Virus record (IMG/VR): IMGVR_UViG_3300046804_006004
Location: 1 to 20,555 of that record
Reading direction: 5' to 3' (one strand)
Length of the DNA: 20,555 bases
Source: a virus
The notes under the pieces are model-generated. The model saw only the letters and a list, made by a program, of their open reading frames with translations. It made no database searches and had not been told where the DNA came from. Positions 1 through 18,734 of this stretch are shown here, in pieces. The position numbers and the translations under genes were made by a program. Positions within the stretch are counted from its first letter, which is position 1; each line of letters begins with the position of its first letter.

Positions 1-3000
1 TCCACTGCAAGTGGTGACATTGTTGTTACAGCAGATAATGGCAGTGATTCAACACATTATATTGATCTTGGTATAAACAGTTCAACATTTAATGATGGCG
101 GTATAGATGGAGCAGATGATGGTTATTTGCTTGTTGAAGGTGGGCATCTTCTAGTTTCTACACTTACAAATAATAAAGATATTATATTTGCAACTGGTGG
201 TCACAATGCAGGTAATGTAGTTGCAAGATTTAAATCAAAAGAATTAAATGTAACTGGTAATATAATACCAGCAGCAAATGTTACTTACAGTCTTGGTAAT
301 GTAAATTATCAATGGAAAGATTTATATGTAAGCAACAATACAATTTATATTAATAATATTCCTCTTTCTATTGCTGCAAACAGTGCACTGTTAGTTAACA
401 ATAATCCTGTTGCTACAACTGTAAATGGCACACTTACAAATAATGGCGATATCTATGCAACAGGTAATGTTACTGCAAACGACACACTTCGTGCACAATA
501 TGGTGATATTGGTAATGTTCAACTTTATGGTGGAACAGTATCGCTTAAGCCAGATGCACCTTGGGACAATCTTACATTAGCAAGTCAAGTAGAGGGTTAT
601 GCATTATTAGAATTACCCAGAAATGTATTTGCTAATGTTAATAATGTAACATTACATAATGATGCTGGTAATATCCAACTTACTACTGGTGATCTTTCAA
701 CAGGTGCTTCACTTTATAATTGGTATTTCAAAAATAATGGTGTTTTAACTTTACCATCATACGCTAACAGTTATAGTGTTATTTCAGGTAATTCTTTTGC
801 ATTACAAGGTGATAATGCAGGTGGTTTTGTTTATTCATATGCATTTCTGCAAAATAATATAGATGCACCTACTCAACCAACAGGTTTGTATAATACTGTT
901 GGAAACGTAGAAATTGGTGCTGGTGGTGTAAATTACTGGTTATTTAAAAATGATGGAATAATAACAACACCAAATGGTGGTTTAATTGGTAATGTTGACA
1001 GCAATGATCCTAATAGTTTTGGATTAAAAGCTGGTGGCAGTGTAAATTATGTTGAATTAAATTATGGTAATGATCAACGCATTTATGTTGATTCAGCAAG
1101 TGTAAACATTGGAACAAACAACAATGTATCACAATATTTGTGGACATTTAGTGACAATGGTTCTACTACATTCCCAGATCATAAACCAGTAAGTATTACT
1201 GGTAACTTGACTGTAGGTAATTTGTTTGTAACAGGTAATTCAACTGTTATTAATACTAATAGTTACACAGTAAGTGACAATATTATTCAACTTGCTGATC
1301 AAAATCCTGCTGATATTTTAGATTTAGGTTTTGCTGCACATCGCACAGTTGGTGGCACATTACAACACACTGGTCTTGTTCGTGATGCAAGTGCAAATAC
1401 TTGGAGATTGTTTAGTAATATCACTTCACAACCTGGTGCTACAATAGATTTTACAAATGCTGTATATGATGCCCTACAAATTGGTAATGTAACATCTACA
1501 GGAAATGTTGCAGCAGAATACTTCCTTGGATATTTTCAGGGATTAATTGGTAGCATAACCAATCTTGACAGTACAAATTTTACTACACAAAATATATATG
1601 CAATAGATCCTGACACTGGAGTTAATATTAGTGCTGGTGGTAACAATAATCTTCTTGTGAAACCCAACGAAGTAAAGATACAAAATGTTCCACTTATTGC
1701 AAATACTGTAACAGCAAATCTTGGTAATGTTATTACTACAAGCGGTGTATTCTGGAGTAATGGTGTAGCTTACAGTAGCGGTGGTAGTTCATACAGTAAT
1801 ACTAATGTAGTTTCTATGTTGGGTGCTAATACTTCTGTTGTTATTGGTAATACAAATACATATCCACTACAAGCCAATACAACACAAATGGTTGTTGGAA
1901 ATGCAACAATTCTTGCAACTGGTGGTTCAACGAACTCAACCACTACATATTTGCTTAATAACATTTACTATGATGCAAGTGGGGCTACAAGATATCGTAA
2001 TACAGGAACTGGTGCGGTATCGATTGCTATGGGCGGTGCAAGTGGTATTACTATAACTGGCACAACCAGTGGAGTTACTGGCAATGCCGCAACTGGAACT
2101 GGTATATGGGTTACAATAAATGGCACAACTCTTTCCACAGTTAATGGTATAGCTATAAGTTCATCTGGTTCATTAACAACAACATCAGGTTCATTGATAA
2201 GTGGTAGTGCAACAGGCTCATTGTTTAATACAACAGCAACTACTATCAACTTTGGTGGTGCAGCAACTACAATTACGATGGGTGCAAACACTGCAAATGT
2301 TTATGTTGGTAGTAATGTTGGTAATGTGTATGTTGGTAATTTAATTACAACAAGCGGTGTATTCTGGAGTAATGGTGTCAGTGCATTAACAAGTTCTTAT
2401 GGTAATACACAAGTTGCAAGTTATCTTACAGGTAACGTTACAATTGGTAACATTGCGATGGGTGTAATGCGTATAAATGGTAGTGACCAAACTCTTACTA
2501 CACTAAATGGTTCTGCAATTATAGTTGGAACCAGACTTAATATAACTGGTAGTGCGGCTGGTGTTGGATTAAATGTTACAAGTGGTAATATCAGTGCTGG
2601 TAGTGCAACTGCAACACTTGGTAATGTTATTACTACTAACGGTGTATTCTGGGCTAATGGTGTAAGTGCATTAGGTAGTAGCAGTTATGGAAATACACAA
2701 GTCGCTGCATATGTTCTTGGTAACTTAACATATGGTAACATAAGTGTAACTGGTATTGCTGCAAGTGGTAACGTAAGTGCTGCATATGTTTTAGGTAATG
2801 GTGCTGGTTTAACAGGTGTTACAACCAATAGTGTTGGTAACATTTATGGCACAAGTAGTAATGTAACAATCGTTGCTGGTTCTTATCAAAGCACATTTAA
2901 CAATGTTGGTAATGTAATTGTTCCAACTATTTGGTCAACAGGTAACTTAACAACAACTACTGGTATCTATTGGAGCAATGGTGTTGCTTGGAGTAGCAGT

Positions 3001-4455
3001 GGTGGTTCATATAGTAACACAGAAGCAGCCGCATATCTTACCATTTATAATGGTAACTTGACCGCAGCTAATCTGTTTGTTGGTGGTAGCGGTTATACAT
3101 ATCTACCAAATACTATTGCACAATTTACTTCAAATAGTAACAGTTATACACAAATTAATACACAAAATATTAATAGTGGATCTGCTGCTACTGCTGATTA
3201 TATTGCAACAGCAAATAATGGTAGTGATACAAAATATTATATTGATCTTGGTATCACTAATAGCAACTATGCAAATGGTTCACCTAACAATAGTTTAGGA
3301 ACAAGTGTTTATCCAAATGATGCTTATTTGTATGTTCAAGGTAATACAGGTACCACTGCTGGTGGTAACCTTGTAATTGGAACAACAACCGCAGCAAAGA
3401 GCATTGTGTTTATTGCTGGAGGTAGTAATGCCGCAAATATTGTAACAACTATAAGCAATACTGGTTTAGTAGTTACTGGTGCTATCACAACAAGCAGTGG
3501 CGGTCAACATATTGGTTATATTACAGGTGCGTTGGGTGCAAATACACCAAATAGTGTTGTTGCAACAACCGTTACTACAAGCAGTGGTGGACAACATATT
3601 GGTTATCATACTGGTGCTATTGGTGCCAACACTGCAAACACGGGTGCATTTACTACTATTAGTGCAACTGGTAATGTAACAGCTACAACTGCAAACGTTT
3701 ATGCCGCAAATATAATCGGTAATACTGCTGTTATTGGTGCTGCTTTCAAATATTCAAACGGTGCTGCATATGATGGAACATATACTAATACTAATGTTGC
3801 AGCATATCTTCCAACTTACACAGGTAATGTTGGTGCAGGTAACCTGATTGGAACAAGTAGTAATGTAACAATAACAAGTGGTGCAAACGTTTGGACATTT
3901 GATAATACTGGTAACTTATCACTTCCAAACTTAAGTGCAACTTATATTCTTGGTGCTAACACTAATGGTAACATTAATATTAATACTGTTGGCACAGGTG
4001 CAGTTAATGTAACTGGTAACTTAACTATAAGTGGTGTTAACGCTGGATATGCACCAAATCGTCCTGCGTTCCGTGTATATGGTTCAAACAGTTATCAATG
4101 GCAAGGTGGTAATACTATCGTTGCTGGTAGCGTTGATTATAACCAAGGAAGTTATTATAATGCAATTACTGGTATCTTTACTGCGCCTATCGCTGGTTTG
4201 TATCATGCATATGCTACACTTCGTGTTGGAAGTAATAATGGTATGAACCAAGCAAGTATACAAAAGAATAGTAATAATACTGGTGCAAATGTTATAAGTT
4301 TCTGGGAAACTGATACTAATACTGGCACAGCAACACACTTTAGTATGACAGGTTATGCTAAACTTGTAGCAGGTGATACAGTTAGATTGCAAGCAATAAC
4401 TGGAAATATTAACCTTGATGCAAATGATAGTTGGGGCGTTACATACATAGGATAA
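1..4455 (+). CDS. Giant repeat-built tail-fibre protein with C-terminal C1q-like head (5' end missing)
   Basis: The reading frame is open from base 1, so the gene begins outside the window; 1484 residues are visible. It is rich in Gly, Asn, Thr, Ser and Val and built from short beta-type repeats, as in trimeric fibre shafts of marine myoviruses. The module at the left edge (ADNGSD..HYIDLGINSS) recurs near bases 3190-3480 (ANNGSD..YYIDLGITNS). A motif of the type TTSGVFWSNGV followed by YxNTxVAxYL recurs about five times between bases 1730 and 3830. A module with HTGLVRDASANTWRLFSNI (around bases 1240-1500) is shared with the last gene of the window. The final 130 residues or so (from base 4060) read as a C1q/TNF-like jelly roll: RPAFRV, then ITGIFTAPIAGLYHAYATL, then a C-terminal WGVTYIG strand. 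C1q-like heads are trimeric binding domains, so I infer a host-surface contact. The receptor is unknown. Fibre identity is firm; the C1q call is good. Confidence 0.85.
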   Translation, partial: STASGDIVVTADNGSDSTHYIDLGINSSTFNDGGIDGADDGYLLVEGGHLLVSTLTNNKDIIFATGGHNAGNVVARFKSKELNVTGNIIPAANVTYSLGNVNYQWKDLYVSNNTIYINNIPLSIAANSALLVNNNPVATTVNGTLTNNGDIYATGNVTANDTLRAQYGDIGNVQLYGGTVSLKPDAPWDNLTLASQVEGYALLELPRNVFANVNNVTLHNDAGNIQLTTGDLSTGASLYNWYFKNNGVLTLPSYANSYSVISGNSFALQGDNAGGFVYSYAFLQNNIDAPTQPTGLYNTVGNVEIGAGGVNYWLFKNDGIITTPNGGLIGNVDSNDPNSFGLKAGGSVNYVELNYGNDQRIYVDSASVNIGTNNNVSQYLWTFSDNGSTTFPDHKPVSITGNLTVGNLFVTGNSTVINTNSYTVSDNIIQLADQNPADILDLGFAAHRTVGGTLQHTGLVRDASANTWRLFSNITSQPGATIDFTNAVYDALQIGNVTSTGNVAAEYFLGYFQGLIGSITNLDSTNFTTQNIYAIDPDTGVNISAGGNNNLLVKPNEVKIQNVPLIANTVTANLGNVITTSGVFWSNGVAYSSGGSSYSNTNVVSMLGANTSVVIGNTNTYPLQANTTQMVVGNATILATGGSTNSTTTYLLNNIYYDASGATRYRNTGTGAVSIAMGGASGITITGTTSGVTGNAATGTGIWVTINGTTLSTVNGIAISSSGSLTTTSGSLISGSATGSLFNTTATTINFGGAATTITMGANTANVYVGSNVGNVYVGNLITTSGVFWSNGVSALTSSYGNTQVASYLTGNVTIGNIAMGVMRINGSDQTLTTLNGSAIIVGTRLNITGSAAGVGLNVTSGNISAGSATATLGNVITTNGVFWANGVSALGSSSYGNTQVAAYVLGNLTYGNISVTGIAASGNVSAAYVLGNGAGLTGVTTNSVGNIYGTSSNVTIVAGSYQSTFNNVGNVIVPTIWSTGNLTTTTGIYWSNGVAWSSSGGSYSNTEAAAYLTIYNGNLTAANLFVGGSGYTYLPNTIAQFTSNSNSYTQINTQNINSGSAATADYIATANNGSDTKYYIDLGITNSNYANGSPNNSLGTSVYPNDAYLYVQGNTGTTAGGNLVIGTTTAAKSIVFIAGGSNAANIVTTISNTGLVVTGAITTSSGGQHIGYITGALGANTPNSVVATTVTTSSGGQHIGYHTGAIGANTANTGAFTTISATGNVTATTANVYAANIIGNTAVIGAAFKYSNGAAYDGTYTNTNVAAYLPTYTGNVGAGNLIGTSSNVTITSGANVWTFDNTGNLSLPNLSATYILGANTNGNININTVGTGAVNVTGNLTISGVNAGYAPNRPAFRVYGSNSYQWQGGNTIVAGSVDYNQGSYYNAITGIFTAPIAGLYHAYATLRVGSNNGMNQASIQKNSNNTGANVISFWETDTNTGTATHFSMTGYAKLVAGDTVRLQAITGNINLDANDSWGVTYIG
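1732..2663 (+). repeat. Three 35-base direct repeats inside the giant fibre gene
   Basis: Near-identical 35-base copies lie at 1732-1766, 2344-2378 and 2629-2663. They encode TTSGVFWSNGV, TTSGVFWSNGV and TTNGVFWANGV. The first two differ at one base and the third at a few. They mark the boundary of a repeating shaft module, each followed by a YSNT/YGNT segment. Such repeats could let the fibre lengthen or shorten by homologous recombination. Confidence 0.85.
3487..3606 (+). repeat. Pair of 33-base direct repeats, 87 bases apart
   Basis: Copies at 3487-3519 and 3574-3606 both encode TTSSGGQHIGY and differ at only a few, mostly third, codon positions. The 87-base period is 29 codons, so gain or loss of a unit would keep the frame. 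This looks like a recent internal duplication in the fibre shaft. Confidence 0.8.
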
Positions 4456-12412: not shown

Positions 12413-12435
12413 TTCCTAACGGAGTTGCATTTATG
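12405..12435 (+). promoter_or_regulatory. Inverted repeat linking a late promoter to the start codon
   Basis: CATAAAT (12405-12411), inside the promoter, is the exact reverse complement of ATTTATG (12429-12435), which contains the start codon. The loop holds the ribosome site. The stem is AT-rich and weak on its own, but the arrangement matches that at 10555-10581 and 18744-18782. Confidence 0.4.
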
Positions 12436-14286
12436 TCTTATACCATTACATACGCAAATGGTGCTAATTCGATTGTCATTGCTGATGGAACATTAGATAA
12501 CAGCACAAGTATATCACTCGTTGGTAAGAATTATCCCAATTATGGTCAGTATCTTGACCAAAACTTTCTTAATATGTTGGAGAACTTTGCCAGCGGCAGT
12601 CAACCAAGCAATCCAGTTGTTGGACAGATTTGGTATAATACTACTAAAGGTGCGCTACAAGTATATAATGGTGTAATTTTTAAAAATATTGCAAGTGCAA
12701 CAAATAGTCCAACTTCACCTACAAGCAGTGTTGCGGGTGACTTATGGTTTGATAGTGCTAACCAACAACTTAATGTTTACAATGGAACAGGTTGGGTAAC
12801 AATTGGGCCACTTGGTGGTGCTGGTCAAGTTGTTAGTGAAACAATAACAGATACTCTGGCAGGTAATCATGATGTTATTAGTATGAAGATTAATAACGTC
12901 CGTTATGCTATTTTAAGTAAAGATGCAACATTTACACCTTCAACCACAATAAGTGGTTTTAGTACAATTTCACCAGGTTTCAATATTGCTTCTACTGCTT
13001 TTGTTAGTAACAATAAGTTTGTTGGTCAAGCAAGTGATAGTGCTGCACTTAATGGTATTAGTGGCAGTAGCTTTATGCGTAATGATTCAAATACTGGCAC
13101 GGTTGGTATTTTAAGTGTAACAAATAATAGCGGTATTTCTTGGGGAACAACAGGACAAGGACAGGTTAGCGTATACAGCAATGAAGTTCGTTTTGATAAT
13201 GTTTTAAACAATGGTATTATTAGAATGAGAACAAGAAATGGCAGTGGTGCTGTTGTTGATGCGCTTGACATTCTTGCTAATGCTGATGTGCAAGTTAATG
13301 GTAATTTGATTGTTCTTGGTGATTTAGATGTTGTAACAAGTAATGAAATTGCAGTAATCAGTGGAACATCTGCTGCTTACAGTACAACAAGTGGTGCATT
13401 ACAAGTTTCAGGTGGCGCTGGTATTGTTGGTAATATCATTGTTGGTGGTCCAAATAATGCATTTACGGGTAATGTTTATGTTGGTAATCTAATTGCTAAT
13501 GGAAGTAGCAACAATGGTAATGTTTATGCAAACTATGTAATGGCTGGCACTATTGGTAATAGTAGTGCAACACTTACTGGAACTATAAGCACTGCTTCAC
13601 AAACAAATATTACAACAATTGGAACATTAACATCATTGCAAGTAAGTGGTGCCGCAGGTTTTACAGGTGGAACTGTTACATTTAATCCAACAACAACTTA
13701 TAAATTAATTCTTGGAAATGTTGGCAACGTTCAAATTGCTGGTGGAACAAATGGACAAGTTCTTTCAACTGATGGAAGTAGTAATCTTAATTGGTATACA
13801 ATTCCAACTCCAGTTACAGGTGGCGCAACTGCTGGTCAACTTGCAATATACACAAGTGCAGCAAATATTGCTGGTAATAGCAGTGTTACATTTAATGGTT
13901 CTAATGTAAGTATCACTGGTGGTTTACTTGCTACACAAGATATCGTAGCTTTCTATTCTGACCAACGCTTAAAAACTGATATTACACCAATTACAAATGC
14001 TGTAGAAAAAGTTAAAGCAATTAGTGGTGTTACATACAGAACAAATGATGTTGCGGCAAGTCTTGGCATTGGCGATGACCGTGAACATGTTGGTGTGCTT
14101 GCACAAGAAATACAACAAGTCTTACCACAAGTTGTGTTACAAGCGCCATTTGATATTGATCCAACTAACGGTAGTATCAGTGGTGAACATTATTTGACAG
14201 TTCAATACGATAAAATTGTTCCGCTTCTTATTCAGGCAATTAAGGAATTAAGTGCAGAGGTTGAGGCATTAAAAGCAGCGAGGTAA
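12433..14286 (+). CDS. Tail fibre/spike with C-terminal peptidase-S74 self-cleaving chaperone
   Basis: A 617-residue protein starting at ATG 12433 behind GGAG. The N-terminal domain carries NSTSISLVGKNYPNYGQYLD, QNFLNMLENFASGSQPSNP and two copies of a GQIWYNTTKGALQVYNG-type block. From memory this is a typical baseplate-attachment N-terminus of cyanophage-like T4 fibres. A Gly/Asn/Thr shaft follows. The C-terminal 109 residues begin at SDQRLKTDI (Ser509, base 13957) and match the intramolecular chaperone of endosialidase family (peptidase S74). Further marks are HVGVLAQEIQQVLPQVV, HYLTVQYDKIVPLLIQAIKE and a final coiled-coil-like SAEVEALKAA. In this family the chaperone trimerises the fibre and then cuts itself off just before the Ser of the SD-x-RLK motif, so mature fibre would end at Tyr508. 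No tail-spike enzyme domain is seen before it. Confidence 0.92.
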   Translation: MSYTITYANGANSIVIADGTLDNSTSISLVGKNYPNYGQYLDQNFLNMLENFASGSQPSNPVVGQIWYNTTKGALQVYNGVIFKNIASATNSPTSPTSSVAGDLWFDSANQQLNVYNGTGWVTIGPLGGAGQVVSETITDTLAGNHDVISMKINNVRYAILSKDATFTPSTTISGFSTISPGFNIASTAFVSNNKFVGQASDSAALNGISGSSFMRNDSNTGTVGILSVTNNSGISWGTTGQGQVSVYSNEVRFDNVLNNGIIRMRTRNGSGAVVDALDILANADVQVNGNLIVLGDLDVVTSNEIAVISGTSAAYSTTSGALQVSGGAGIVGNIIVGGPNNAFTGNVYVGNLIANGSSNNGNVYANYVMAGTIGNSSATLTGTISTASQTNITTIGTLTSLQVSGAAGFTGGTVTFNPTTTYKLILGNVGNVQIAGGTNGQVLSTDGSSNLNWYTIPTPVTGGATAGQLAIYTSAANIAGNSSVTFNGSNVSITGGLLATQDIVAFYSDQRLKTDITPITNAVEKVKAISGVTYRTNDVAASLGIGDDREHVGVLAQEIQQVLPQVVLQAPFDIDPTNGSISGEHYLTVQYDKIVPLLIQAIKELSAEVEALKAAR

Positions 14287-14290
14287 TTAA

Positions 14291-15304
14291 ATGGCTTTTG
14301 TTCCTAACTCTGGTGTAGTAAGCACTGATATAATAAGTGATGTGTTTGGGTTAGGCGACGATTTTAATAATTATCGTGGCACAATATGGTATTATCCAGC
14401 AAATTTAACTTATGGTTACTTTAGTACTGGAACAATAAAATCCAGTGACTTTTATGGTAAACAACCTAATGATCCTGCAACTGCTGGTGTTTTGTTTAGT
14501 AACACTGCTGGTAGTGGAAGTTTTGTTGTTCCGCTTTATAGAAATACAATTACTATAGAAATATGGGGTGCAGGCGGTAGTGGTGGTGGAGGTAATGGTG
14601 GTGCTGGTGCAAAAGGTGGTGATAGCAGTGCATTAGGTATCACAGTGGGCGGTGGAGATGGTGGAAAAGCAGGTAATATTCCTGTACCCCCACCAAAAAT
14701 AATTGACAACCCAAGTGGTGGTAAAGATGCTGCAAACCCACCAGGCTATTATAGCGGTCAAGGTGGATATGGTCAAAATGGTGGTGGTAATCAGGTTGTA
14801 GGTAGTGGACCAGGTGGAACTATTCAAGATTGTATTGTCCCAACTGCATTAATAACCTTAGATGATGGAACACAAAAAGAGGTCCAATATATTAAAATTG
14901 GTGACAAAGTAAAATCTAAAAATGAAAAAAATAATATTGTGATTGGTATTAGTAACCCAGTTTTTAATGGTAGTCTTGTTGCGTTTAATGATAGTAATTA
15001 CTTTATTACTGAAACACATCCATTATTAACGGATAAAGGATGGGGTACATTTAATTTAGAATTATTTAAATCATGTAAGCCAGATGAATATCAAAAGATA
15101 GTAGAAGATAATAATGGTAATGATTTAATAGAAATTAATGAAAAAATAAAACTTGCTAAAATCGTTAAAGATTCTGTTGAATTTTATGAGTGTAAAAATA
15201 TTACATATAAAGAGGTTACAAATTTTACGGTTTATAAATTATCAGTTGATGGCGATAAGACTTTTATATGTGAAAATTATGTATCACATAATAAACCAAT
15301 TTAA
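14291..15304 (+). CDS. Glycine-rich tail adhesin N-terminal half fused to a C-terminal Hint (intein-like) domain
   Basis: A 337-residue protein starting at ATG 14291, four bases after the S74 fibre gene. Residues of about 1-60 are an adaptor (DVFGLGDDFNNYRGTIWYYP ... IKSSDFYGKQP) that also opens the gene at 15724. Residues of about 67-180 begin a glycine-rich tip domain: GSGSFVVPLYRNTITIEIWG, then AGGSGGGGNGGAGAKGG. At Cys181 (after GGTIQD) a Hint domain begins: CIVPTALITLDDGTQKEV, IKIGDKVKSK, the TxxH block TETHPLLT (His243), and a C-terminal block VYKLSVDGDKTFICENYVSHN ending His333-Asn334. Only KPI follows before the stop. At 154 residues there is no room for a homing endonuclease. The residue after Asn334 is Lys, not Cys/Ser/Thr, so ordinary intein ligation is unlikely, but N- or C-terminal cleavage remains chemically possible. 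The rest of the glycine-rich domain seems to be in the next ORF. Confidence 0.88.
   Translation: MAFVPNSGVVSTDIISDVFGLGDDFNNYRGTIWYYPANLTYGYFSTGTIKSSDFYGKQPNDPATAGVLFSNTAGSGSFVVPLYRNTITIEIWGAGGSGGGGNGGAGAKGGDSSALGITVGGGDGGKAGNIPVPPPKIIDNPSGGKDAANPPGYYSGQGGYGQNGGGNQVVGSGPGGTIQDCIVPTALITLDDGTQKEVQYIKIGDKVKSKNEKNNIVIGISNPVFNGSLVAFNDSNYFITETHPLLTDKGWGTFNLELFKSCKPDEYQKIVEDNNGNDLIEINEKIKLAKIVKDSVEFYECKNITYKEVTNFTVYKLSVDGDKTFICENYVSHNKPI
14831..15292 (+). other. Hint (hedgehog/intein) domain coding segment
   Basis: This segment encodes residues 181-334 of the adhesin, from Cys181 to Asn334. It contains the first nucleophile Cys, the TxxH motif (Thr240, His243) and the terminal His-Asn pair, so every residue for an N-S acyl shift and Asn cyclisation is present. 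Its Lys/Glu/Asn/Ile-rich composition contrasts with the Gly/Thr/Asn composition of the flanking host protein, consistent with insertion. Confidence 0.85.
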
Positions 15305-15317
15305 AAAAATGTTAACA

Positions 15318-15339
15318 TATAGTAACAAAACTTACTATA
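15318..15339 (+). promoter_or_regulatory. 8-bp inverted repeat overlapping a late promoter
   Basis: TATAGTAA (15318-15325) and TTACTATA (15332-15339) are perfect reverse complements around a 6-base loop. The right arm overlaps the promoter octamer by four bases. A 10-base palindrome, ATGTTAACAT, lies just upstream at 15309-15318. These could be a protein-binding site or a weak RNA hairpin ending the upstream message. Confidence 0.5.
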
Positions 15340-15343
15340 AATA
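15336..15343 (+). promoter_or_regulatory. T4-type late promoter, exact consensus TATAAATA
   Basis: TATAAATA followed by TTTC is an exact match to the T4 late promoter consensus. It ends 16 bases before the ATG at 15360 and gives the C-terminal adhesin fragment its own transcription start, separate from the Hint-bearing N-terminal half. Confidence 0.85.
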
Positions 15344-15359
15344 TTTCAAAGGATAAAAA

Positions 15360-15722
15360 ATGACAACGGGAACACCTGGAACAGGCGGTAGTGGTGGAAC
15401 TATAAATGATAAACCAACACCATCAATCGCTAATCCACGTTCATTTACATTTTTAAATGGAAATAGTGGTAGAACAGGTTCTACTGCAAACACTTATAGT
15501 TATTCTAATGCAAATGTTGGGGTCGGTGGCGGCGGTTCTACGGTAACAAATACTAATGGTACTGCAACAGGTGGTGCAGGCGGTGCAGGTGCTTATATTA
15601 AAATTGTTTATGGACCTGGTCAATTGACTGCTGGTAATGTATTAAGCTATATTATTGGTGCTGGAGGAACAACTGGTGCAATTGATGGCACAAATGGTGG
15701 AATAAAAATAACTTGGACTTAA
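15360..15722 (+). CDS. Separate C-terminal half of a glycine-rich adhesin domain
   Basis: A 120-residue protein starting at ATG 15360 with AAAGGA at 15348-15353. It lacks the adaptor and first beta strands expected of a glycine-rich tip protein and holds only the closing part: TNGTATGGAGGAGAYIKIVY, GPGQLTAGNVLSYIIGAGG, NGGIKITWT. That is the usual C-terminal end of the domain whose first half precedes the Hint domain in the gene upstream. Its early sequence GGTINDKPT matches the two residues runs flanking the Hint domain (GGTIQD before, KPI after) as if the insertion were absent. An in-frame TAA at 15354 rules out simple read-through from upstream. It may assemble with the N-terminal half as a split adhesin, or be the remnant of a duplicated gene. 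Confidence 0.75.
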   Translation: MTTGTPGTGGSGGTINDKPTPSIANPRSFTFLNGNSGRTGSTANTYSYSNANVGVGGGGSTVTNTNGTATGGAGGAGAYIKIVYGPGQLTAGNVLSYIIGAGGTTGAIDGTNGGIKITWT

Positions 15723-15723
15723 A

Positions 15724-16554
15724 ATGACAATTTCTTTAACTGGTAAAGTTGCTCTTAACGCTAATATCAATACTGAATTTCAGTTGGGTAATGCTATGTC
15801 AACATACCGTGGTGTTGCATATTACAAACCATCTACTACAACCATTGGAGCTTTTGATAGTGTTAACTTGAATTTTAGTGAATTTCGTGGAACACAGGAT
15901 AAAATTACAACAGACTTAACTATTTCTGCAAATACTCAAAATTATACATTAAACCCAGCTGCAGTTGCTGGTTATGTTGCAAACTTTTCAAAAGTAAATT
16001 TAACAGTTGATTCTAATGTTTATGTTGGTAGTGCATCTACTGGTTCTTATGCAATGACGATTACAGGATTTGCAGCAGGTGATACGATTAACTTAATAAA
16101 CAATGGCACAATTATTGGTGCTGGTGGTGATGGTGGTAGTAGTCCAGTTGGTGGAACTGGTAATAATGGTAATGCAGGCGGTAATGCATTATTGTTACAA
16201 TGTCCTGTAAACATTACAAATAATGGAACAATTGCTGGTGGCGGTGGTGGCGGAGGCGCAAATGATGGTGGCTCTATTTACGGAAGCTGCACAGGTGGAG
16301 GTGGTTCTGTCGCTGGTCAAGGTGGCGGTGGTGGGGCTGGTTATAATTCAGGTAGTGGTGGTAGTGGTGATCCAAGTGGAAGTTCAGGTTCATATACTTC
16401 TGGCGGTGGCGGCGGCGGCAATGGCGGTGGACAAGGTGCTGCTGGTGACACAAGTGGAAGTGGAAGGGCAGGTGGTGCCGCTGGTAAATATATTACTGGC
16501 CTTGCATATGCAACTTGGGTTGCTACGGGTACAAGACTTGGTGGAAGCAGTTAA
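15724..16554 (+). CDS. Glycine-rich receptor-binding tail adhesin with shared N-terminal adaptor
   Basis: A 276-residue protein starting at ATG 15724, two bases after the previous stop. Its first 60 residues (FQLGNAMSTYRGVAYYKPST ... NLNFSEFRGTQD) align with the adaptor of the gene at 14291: LG, YRG, YY.P, S.F.G. A beta segment (TDLTISANTQNYTLNPAAVA) and the motif NNGTIIGAGGDGGSS lead to a repeated NITNNGTIAGGGGGGG block and long Gly/Ser runs. It ends in GKYITGLAYATWVATGTRLG. NNGTI-GGGG segments are typical of phage distal-tail receptor-binding proteins, where glycine runs can pack into helices topped by variable loops. Host-surface recognition is inferred from this architecture. Unlike its upstream neighbours it is uninterrupted. 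Confidence 0.85.
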   Translation: MTISLTGKVALNANINTEFQLGNAMSTYRGVAYYKPSTTTIGAFDSVNLNFSEFRGTQDKITTDLTISANTQNYTLNPAAVAGYVANFSKVNLTVDSNVYVGSASTGSYAMTITGFAAGDTINLINNGTIIGAGGDGGSSPVGGTGNNGNAGGNALLLQCPVNITNNGTIAGGGGGGGANDGGSIYGSCTGGGGSVAGQGGGGGAGYNSGSGGSGDPSGSSGSYTSGGGGGGNGGGQGAAGDTSGSGRAGGAAGKYITGLAYATWVATGTRLGGSS

Positions 16555-17534: not shown

Positions 17535-18734
17535 ATGGAAAATATAGTAGTCACTGGTATTGGTTGTATTACTGCTTGTGGCGTGGGTGTTGATGCACTA
17601 TGGAATTCAGTAAAAAACAATATAAGTGGAATTAAAACATTTCAACATGAATATGATGTTGGAAATAAAGTTAATATTGCCGCTAAAATAAGAGGTTTTA
17701 ATCACTTAGATTATTTTTCAAGACAAACAAGAATTGATTTATTTGCAGCTTATGCAGCAATAGCAGCACGTGAAGCTATTGCACATAGTGAATTAACACA
17801 AGAATTATTAAGTGATAGCAGAACGGGTATTGTTGCTGGTCATGGTTTGCCTGGTGCTGAGTCCATTTACAGTTTTATTACAAAATTAAATGCTGGTAGC
17901 CATAAAAACGATATATTTGCTGTTCCCCGTGCAATGACAAATGCTGCTATAAGTTATGTATGTATTGAAAATAAAATATACGGGCCAAGTTATCCAATTG
18001 GTGCAGGCTGCGTCGCAAGCAATCAAGCAATTGGATTGGCGTATCAACTTATACGTGCAGGTATAATTGATAGGGCAATAGTTGGTGGCACCGAAGCTAC
18101 AATACAACCACATGTTATAAGAGCGTGGGAATATATGAACGCTTTAAGTTTAAATGGCAGCAAACCTTTTACAATTGACAGAGATGGAGTTGTATTGGGT
18201 GAAGGTGCTGGCATGTTAATTCTTGAAAAAGAAAGTGATGCGATTGCACGAAATGCAAAACCACTTGCAAAAATTATGGGATACGGAACTTCTAATGATG
18301 CTTTTCATTTAGTTCAACCCGATAATGAAGGGCTTGTAAAAGCAATGACAGCAGCAATAAAAGATTCAGGTTTATCAGTAAGTGATATTGACTATGTAAA
18401 TGCACATGGCACAGGCACTTTATTAAACGATAAAAATGAAATTGCAGGTTTACGTAAAGTATTTGGTAAACATGCGGATTCACTTCCCATATCTTCAACT
18501 AAACCAATACATGGTCATATGATAGCAGCAACAGGTGCAGTTGAGGCAATCATTACAATCAAAGCAATGCAAAATAACTTTGCACCACCAACAATTAATT
18601 TCACAACTGCTGACCCAGAATGTGATATGGATGTAATTCCTAATTTTGGCAGAAACATGCCAATAAAGTATGCAATGACCAATAATTTTGCATTTGGTGG
18701 GTTAAATTCTACATTAATACTTGGCAGATACTAA
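17535..18734 (+). CDS. fabF: Beta-ketoacyl-ACP synthase (KAS II / FabF-like)
   Basis: A complete 399-residue thiolase-fold condensing enzyme, close to the usual length of FabF/FabB (about 410). It would condense malonyl-ACP with acyl-ACP in fatty-acid chain elongation in the cytoplasm. The start fits the family exactly (MENIVVTGIGCITACG). Catalytic residues are all in place: nucleophile Cys159 in PIGAGCVASNQAIG, His291 in NAHGTGTLLND, Lys323 and His328 in STKPIHGHMIAATGAVE. Other landmarks are VGGTEA, FTIDRDGVVLGEGAGMLILE (residues 212-231) and the glycine loop NNFAFGGLNSTLI near the C-terminus. Around the Cys the usual xAC becomes GAGC, and the usual GFGGTN becomes AFGGLN, so it is a divergent member. 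No ACP or other fab gene is in the window. A secondary-metabolite or chain-length-factor-like role is possible, but the intact active site argues for an active synthase. Confidence 0.93.
   Translation: MENIVVTGIGCITACGVGVDALWNSVKNNISGIKTFQHEYDVGNKVNIAAKIRGFNHLDYFSRQTRIDLFAAYAAIAAREAIAHSELTQELLSDSRTGIVAGHGLPGAESIYSFITKLNAGSHKNDIFAVPRAMTNAAISYVCIENKIYGPSYPIGAGCVASNQAIGLAYQLIRAGIIDRAIVGGTEATIQPHVIRAWEYMNALSLNGSKPFTIDRDGVVLGEGAGMLILEKESDAIARNAKPLAKIMGYGTSNDAFHLVQPDNEGLVKAMTAAIKDSGLSVSDIDYVNAHGTGTLLNDKNEIAGLRKVFGKHADSLPISSTKPIHGHMIAATGAVEAIITIKAMQNNFAPPTINFTTADPECDMDVIPNFGRNMPIKYAMTNNFAFGGLNSTLILGRY

Follow-up and report, generated by a model that had tools for sequence, protein, structure and literature searches.

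The locus described here raises the question of what a complete Hint domain does at the very end of a phage tail-tip gene, and of how the gene boundary that follows it came about. The window (the whole stretch analysed, a 20.5-kb virus record) belongs to a phage known from environmental DNA only. It carries a gene for a glycine-rich protein, gene A, which stops shortly after its Hint domain, and then a short second gene, gene B (Table 1). A sequence-only reading, whose coordinates for both ORFs proved exact, had described the pair as an adhesin split by a Hint domain. Of the genes at this locus, only the one directly 3' of gene B matches PF05268 (GP38 adhesin), with no match to that family for A or B, and gene B has no Pfam match. 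Elsewhere in the window, a phage-encoded beta-ketoacyl-ACP synthase (17535-18734; both Pfam domains far above cut-off) lies directly 3' of the tail genes and is kept in relatives, and a very large ORF (1-4455) has a C1q domain at its C-terminus. Other records are cited by locus number (L009 and so on).

Table 1. Parts of the tail-tip locus, in window coordinates.
Feature	Position	Strand	Description
gp37-like long tail fibre with C-terminal S74 chaperone domain	12433..14286	+	5' of gene A
Gene A	14291-15304	+	337 aa
Gene A, residues 1-135	14291..14695	+	Conserved N-terminal part, first glycine-rich half of tip
Gene A, residues 136-180	14696..14830	+	Hypervariable region (VR), exchangeable cassette; last residue Asp180
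Hint / A-type BIL-like domain	14831..15292	+	Residues 181-334; Cys181, T240, H243, H333, N334
C-terminal flank Lys335-Pro-Ile and stop codon	15293..15304	+	+1 Lys, clade hallmark
TATAAATA between A and B	15336..15343	+	Putative late promoter; not above chance; missing in relatives
Gene B	15360-15722	+	120 aa; glycine-rich tip, closing half
GP38-family tail-fibre adhesin	15724..16554	+	3' of gene B; PF05268 39.1 bits, over cut-off

Identity of the Hint domain

The presence of a complete Hint domain at the C-terminus of gene A is confirmed by profile comparison. The domain comprises 154 residues, starting at Cys181 and passing through T240-E-T-H243 to H333-N334, after which K335-P-I and the stop codon follow. 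Pfam assigns it to Vint (1.9e-5) and to Intein_splicing (0.0027, with the last profile position reached at N334), both scores for the window domain alone being below the curated cut-offs, and a profile of phage C-terminal Hint domains from which the window was left out matches it with 80.8 bits over residues 1-155. Full-length homologues were found in L072 (39.5% identity, 4e-28), L066, L082, L087, L101 and L060. These surfaced only once a Hint alignment served as query; a single-sequence search of viral and genome contigs returned no close relatives, and PHROGs, NCBIfam and named phage records held no close match. Because the structure predictions were poor (pLDDT 47 for the Hint domain alone, 31 for the whole of A), assignment of the fold rests on sequence profiles. 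The low GC content of the domain (0.25) was not accepted as evidence that it is foreign, GC3 (0.12) being the same in the domain and its neighbours.

A-type BIL (bacterial intein-like) domains (Amitai 2003; Dassa 2004; as described in PMC4031507, PMC7765530 and PMC9185962) are Hint domains of 130-155 aa with Cys1, a block-B His and a terminal His-Asn, they have no +1 nucleophile of the Cys/Ser/Thr kind, and they lie in hypervariable regions of non-conserved proteins. The window domain fits this definition on every sequence feature tested, having a whole-domain HINT-family sequence, an N-terminal Cys, the block-B His, a C-terminal His-Asn followed by a residue other than Cys/Ser/Thr (H333-N334-K335) and a place in the hypervariable region of a non-conserved protein; its length is within the BIL range and no endonuclease family was matched in it by Pfam. 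It departs from the described A-type domains in that its host is a phage tail tip, its +1 residue is a near-invariant Lys, its gene ends three codons on, and the remaining half of the host fold is encoded separately by another gene. A class 1 intein was rejected on the grounds of Lys335 at +1, the variable insertion site and a C-flank of three residues, which bears out the earlier opinion that standard splicing is unlikely. Split inteins in fractured genes resemble the window in that the host gene is broken at an intein-like element, but here the Hint domain is complete within one ORF and B has no intein part, and this candidate was rejected too.

Genes A and B as halves of one tip

The relationship between A and B is illuminated by single-chain paralogues of 280-284 aa, which sit directly 3' of B in L009 and L010 (L009:5320-6162 and L010:5322-6176), a position taken by the GP38-family gene in the window. 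Gene A aligns to the start of these proteins with z 21-31, an alignment trusted only over residues ~1-137 because it enters glycine repeats beyond that point, and gene B aligns to residues ~139-280 with z 7-10. The assignment of residues 1-135 of A to the first half of the tip has the same basis, together with their retention in relatives. The best explanation is that a single glycine-rich tail-tip adhesin, sitting at the tip of the gp37-like fibre, is translated as two separate halves, A and B, and the earlier description of B as a closing half holds on this alignment. T-even gp38 adhesins (PMC6851490, PMC12892980) are comparable, likewise being glycine-rich tips that come after gp37 and have variable segments between conserved glycine-rich motifs, but A and B do not match PF05268 and their variable part falls where two genes meet.

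IMG/VR searches yielded 22 related records, 23 with the window. A and B are separate ORFs in 23/23, and 19 of these have no Hint domain yet are equally split; in the Hint-less relatives the genes share a single base or are separated by 2-23 bases, against a gap of 55 in the window. The Hint domain was thus rejected as sole cause of the present split, and of the adhesin proposed to be split by it, the two halves of one glycine-rich tip stand. The sequence-only reading had counted an independent B in close relatives as evidence against such halves; B is indeed independent throughout, and yet it corresponds to the closing half of the paralogues. A further claim, that B has an exact-consensus late promoter, was abandoned: the window has one copy of TATAAATA where chance alone predicts 4.4, and upstream of B it was found in 0/18 relatives. 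There are hints that A and B once formed a single open reading frame with the Hint domain in its interior, in that the 5' flank of the domain matches the start of B at 17/24 nt (a possible duplicated junction) and its 3' flank AAACCAA (4 copies in 20.5 kb) likewise matches B, although this match is post hoc and too short to lean on.

The division of one fold between A and B, together with the ability of type A BILs to join chains via a free amine (PMC4031507), could suggest splicing of the two in trans into a single chain by the Hint domain. This is very improbable, as B lacks an intein part and 19 records manage without any Hint domain. The start of B, which was looked at as a possible trace of trans-ligation and rejected as such, is MS, MT or MA alike with or without the domain.

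The Hint domain within an exchangeable cassette

The VR, which starts after the proline motif of A, is more divergent than its flanks, with a median pairwise nucleotide identity of 0.52 compared with 0.67 for the N-terminal part of A and 0.71 for B. L010 and L014 carry a different Hint domain at the same place in A (Hom_end_hint above cut-off, without a terminal His-Asn). Between these two records the VR and Hint are 96% identical at the nucleotide level (dS 0.03-0.07), whereas identity outside the cassette is 79% for the N-terminal part of A, 73% for B and 69% for gp37 (dS 0.67-1.15), which shows that the whole cassette changed hands as one piece in the recent past. VR swaps not involving a Hint domain were seen in L021/L026 and L016/L019. 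These comparisons identify the C-terminus of A as a hypervariable cassette, evidently swapped between phages by recombination. Gene A varies at a second place too, as L032 (4971-6071) has a large insertion in its N-terminal half.

The end points of Hint-less alleles are informative with respect to processing. L009 has a homologue of the window VR (z 6.6, 0/300 shuffles), and its A ends about one residue beyond the position of Asp180; the L010/L014 VR resembles that of L011, in which A ends seven residues further on. Hint-less alleles thus end 1-7 residues from the Hint start position, near the predicted end of a cleaved A.

The same data bear on the possibility that the domain is an inert intein or BIL remnant, hitch-hiking on cassette exchange and processing nothing. 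It is dispensable in 19/23 records, there being just three distinct Hint cassettes among the relatives of A, and the window domain has no sister in the same gene on which selection could be tested. All of this agrees with an inert remnant, but the window domain keeps every catalytic residue, dN/dS between L010 and L014 is 0.48 for the Hint domain, a value based on few changes, and 1.6 for the VR, and a divergent clade shares the Cys1, the His, the His-Asn and the +1 Lys (below). Inertness is accordingly judged unlikely, while being the strongest of the alternatives to cleavage.

The HN-Lys clade and its solved relatives

The Hint alignment search returned 60 viral Hint loci, and in ~22 of them the domain caps the C-terminus of a phage protein, in some cases a tail-like or glycine-rich one. 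In the 18 nearest Hint domains that end in HN, mutually related sequences from seeded searches and so not independent, the +1 residue is K in 16, R in one and N in one; +1 Cys/Ser/Thr is confined to more distant, mostly canonical inteins. The clade also has bacterial members (Pelagibius, Marinobacterium, Zobellella, Bdellovibrionales and others). In an alignment of 20 phage and bacterial sequences C1, the block-B H63, H153 and N154 are invariant and K155 is present in 19, at 24-39% identity to the window domain. Secreted-looking bacterial proteins with HN-Lys Hint domains occur in L115 (637-1686, 2809-3879) and L118 (2557-4107), where glycine-rich acidic tails begin at the Lys and sigma-factor-like ORFs are near; they possibly form a separate bacterial system.

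When the clade profile was compared with the PDB, the best matches were 6y75/6tmm (3e-13), followed by 2lwy, a 'bacterial intein-like domain' (3.5e-10), and inteins ranked behind these. The 6y75/6tmm structures are of BIL2 from the Tetrahymena BUBL1 locus, which has been reported to form a lysine isopeptide (PMC8616854). Like the window domain BIL2 ends a separately folded domain, but it belongs to a eukaryotic ubiquitin-like precursor for which conjugation is reported, whilst the window domain is known from sequence. With BIL domains as the closest solved relatives, one of them making lysine isopeptides, the earlier suggestion of thioester formation and cleavage is plausible by analogy.

This relationship and the near-invariant +1 Lys are also what commends a ligation reading, in which the Asp180 thioester would be captured by a Lys (K335, or a Lys of B, the fibre or the host) to give an isopeptide or covalent attachment. 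Type A BILs nevertheless yield mainly cleavage products (PMC4031507), the Lys of the clade is a candidate nucleophile only, and the partner is hypothetical, so that ligation appears rather improbable at this locus. The broader idea that HN-Lys BILs on phage virion proteins are built-in ligases, their thioesters captured by Lys to cross-link particles by isopeptides or attach them to host surfaces, is similarly speculative and has long odds against it.

Hint domains in other virion proteins

A virion protein unrelated to A, phrog_358, carries the same Hint domain between profile positions ~1407 and ~1421. In L072 and L101 a single reading frame spans the domain (VHN-KAGDNPPPPPPDDDDPIAQTF; AHN-RDPIAQTF); in L082 and L087 a stop codon follows a short way past it and the remainder (NPIAQTF...) forms the next gene. 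This break, together with cassette exchange and the +1 Lys as clade hallmark, had been missed by the sequence-only reading.

Further arrangements were observed. The glycine-rich tail-tip protein L060:2084-5176 has two tandem HN-Lys Hint domains, the second of which runs straight into an S74-like chaperone domain (HN-KSDARLKRN). L066:1-2361 encodes a collagen-like fibre with four tandem Hint domains at its end, the first ones joined as VHN-K-C, and the gene after it is a phrog_358 relative. C-terminal Hint domains also occur on tail-region proteins of Achromobacter phage JWF (AJD82922), phage 2-1 (WKV22028) and Providencia phage PSTNGR1 (QPB11246), but these are of another type without His-Asn and there is no split glycine-rich tip. 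As the JWF tail fibre has its Hint domain by annotation, the novelty claimed earlier needs narrowing: a Hint domain on a tail protein is not wholly new, although the open-access papers searched include none that discusses Hint-capped phage tail tips. In JWF (L048:5234-6598) and 2-1 (L055:3731-5089) a CNCDCNCNC stretch precedes the Hint domain, and a radical-SAM gene lies two genes past the Hint-capped fibre, which is possibly further modified.

Proposed mechanism and history

Type A BILs form an N-terminal thioester, cut at the C-terminal Asn and give mostly cleaved products (PMC4031507; BIL chemistry is also described in PMC7765530). By analogy, we propose that the A-type BIL domain of gene A cleaves at Asp180/Cys181 and that A(1-180) assembles with B, a reading to which we give a probability of roughly 55%. 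After folding, Cys181, aided by T240 and H243, would attack the Asp180 carbonyl in an N-S acyl shift; the resulting thioester would then be hydrolysed or captured by an amine, and Asn334 could cyclise, releasing the KPI tail. Asp at -1 is not particularly supported as a site of cleavage. The predicted product, a mature A comprising residues 1-180 and similar in length to the Hint-less alleles, would assemble with B.

If the Hint domain cuts the chain, a gene break after it would be cheap, and later loss of the domain would be cheap too. Self-cleavage that makes both steps nearly cost-free fits the three states observed, namely one gene with a Hint domain (phrog_358 in L072/L101), two genes with it (the window, L082 and L087) and two genes without it (19 records). 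These states probably arose in that order, with phrog_358 showing the earlier ones.

Implications

BIL domains have been known since 2003, and their natural role is poorly understood. Here a BIL domain occupies a segment of a phage tail tip that is exchangeable and of the host-range type. Its flanking Lys is conserved across the clade, and the domain gains a concrete setting with visible partners in A, B and the fibre. What is new is the occurrence of a +1 Lys clade on virion proteins, the swapping of Hint cassettes among tail tips, and gene breaks directly after the Hint domain in two unrelated virion proteins, in both of which the gene end coincides with the predicted cut site of the domain. 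This offers a plausible route by which self-cleaving domains may create two-gene proteins. By analogy with BIL chemistry, phage tail proteins may be capable of cleaving themselves, or even of forming covalent attachments, and, if ligation were true, this would amount to ATP-free covalent linking at the phage tail tip.
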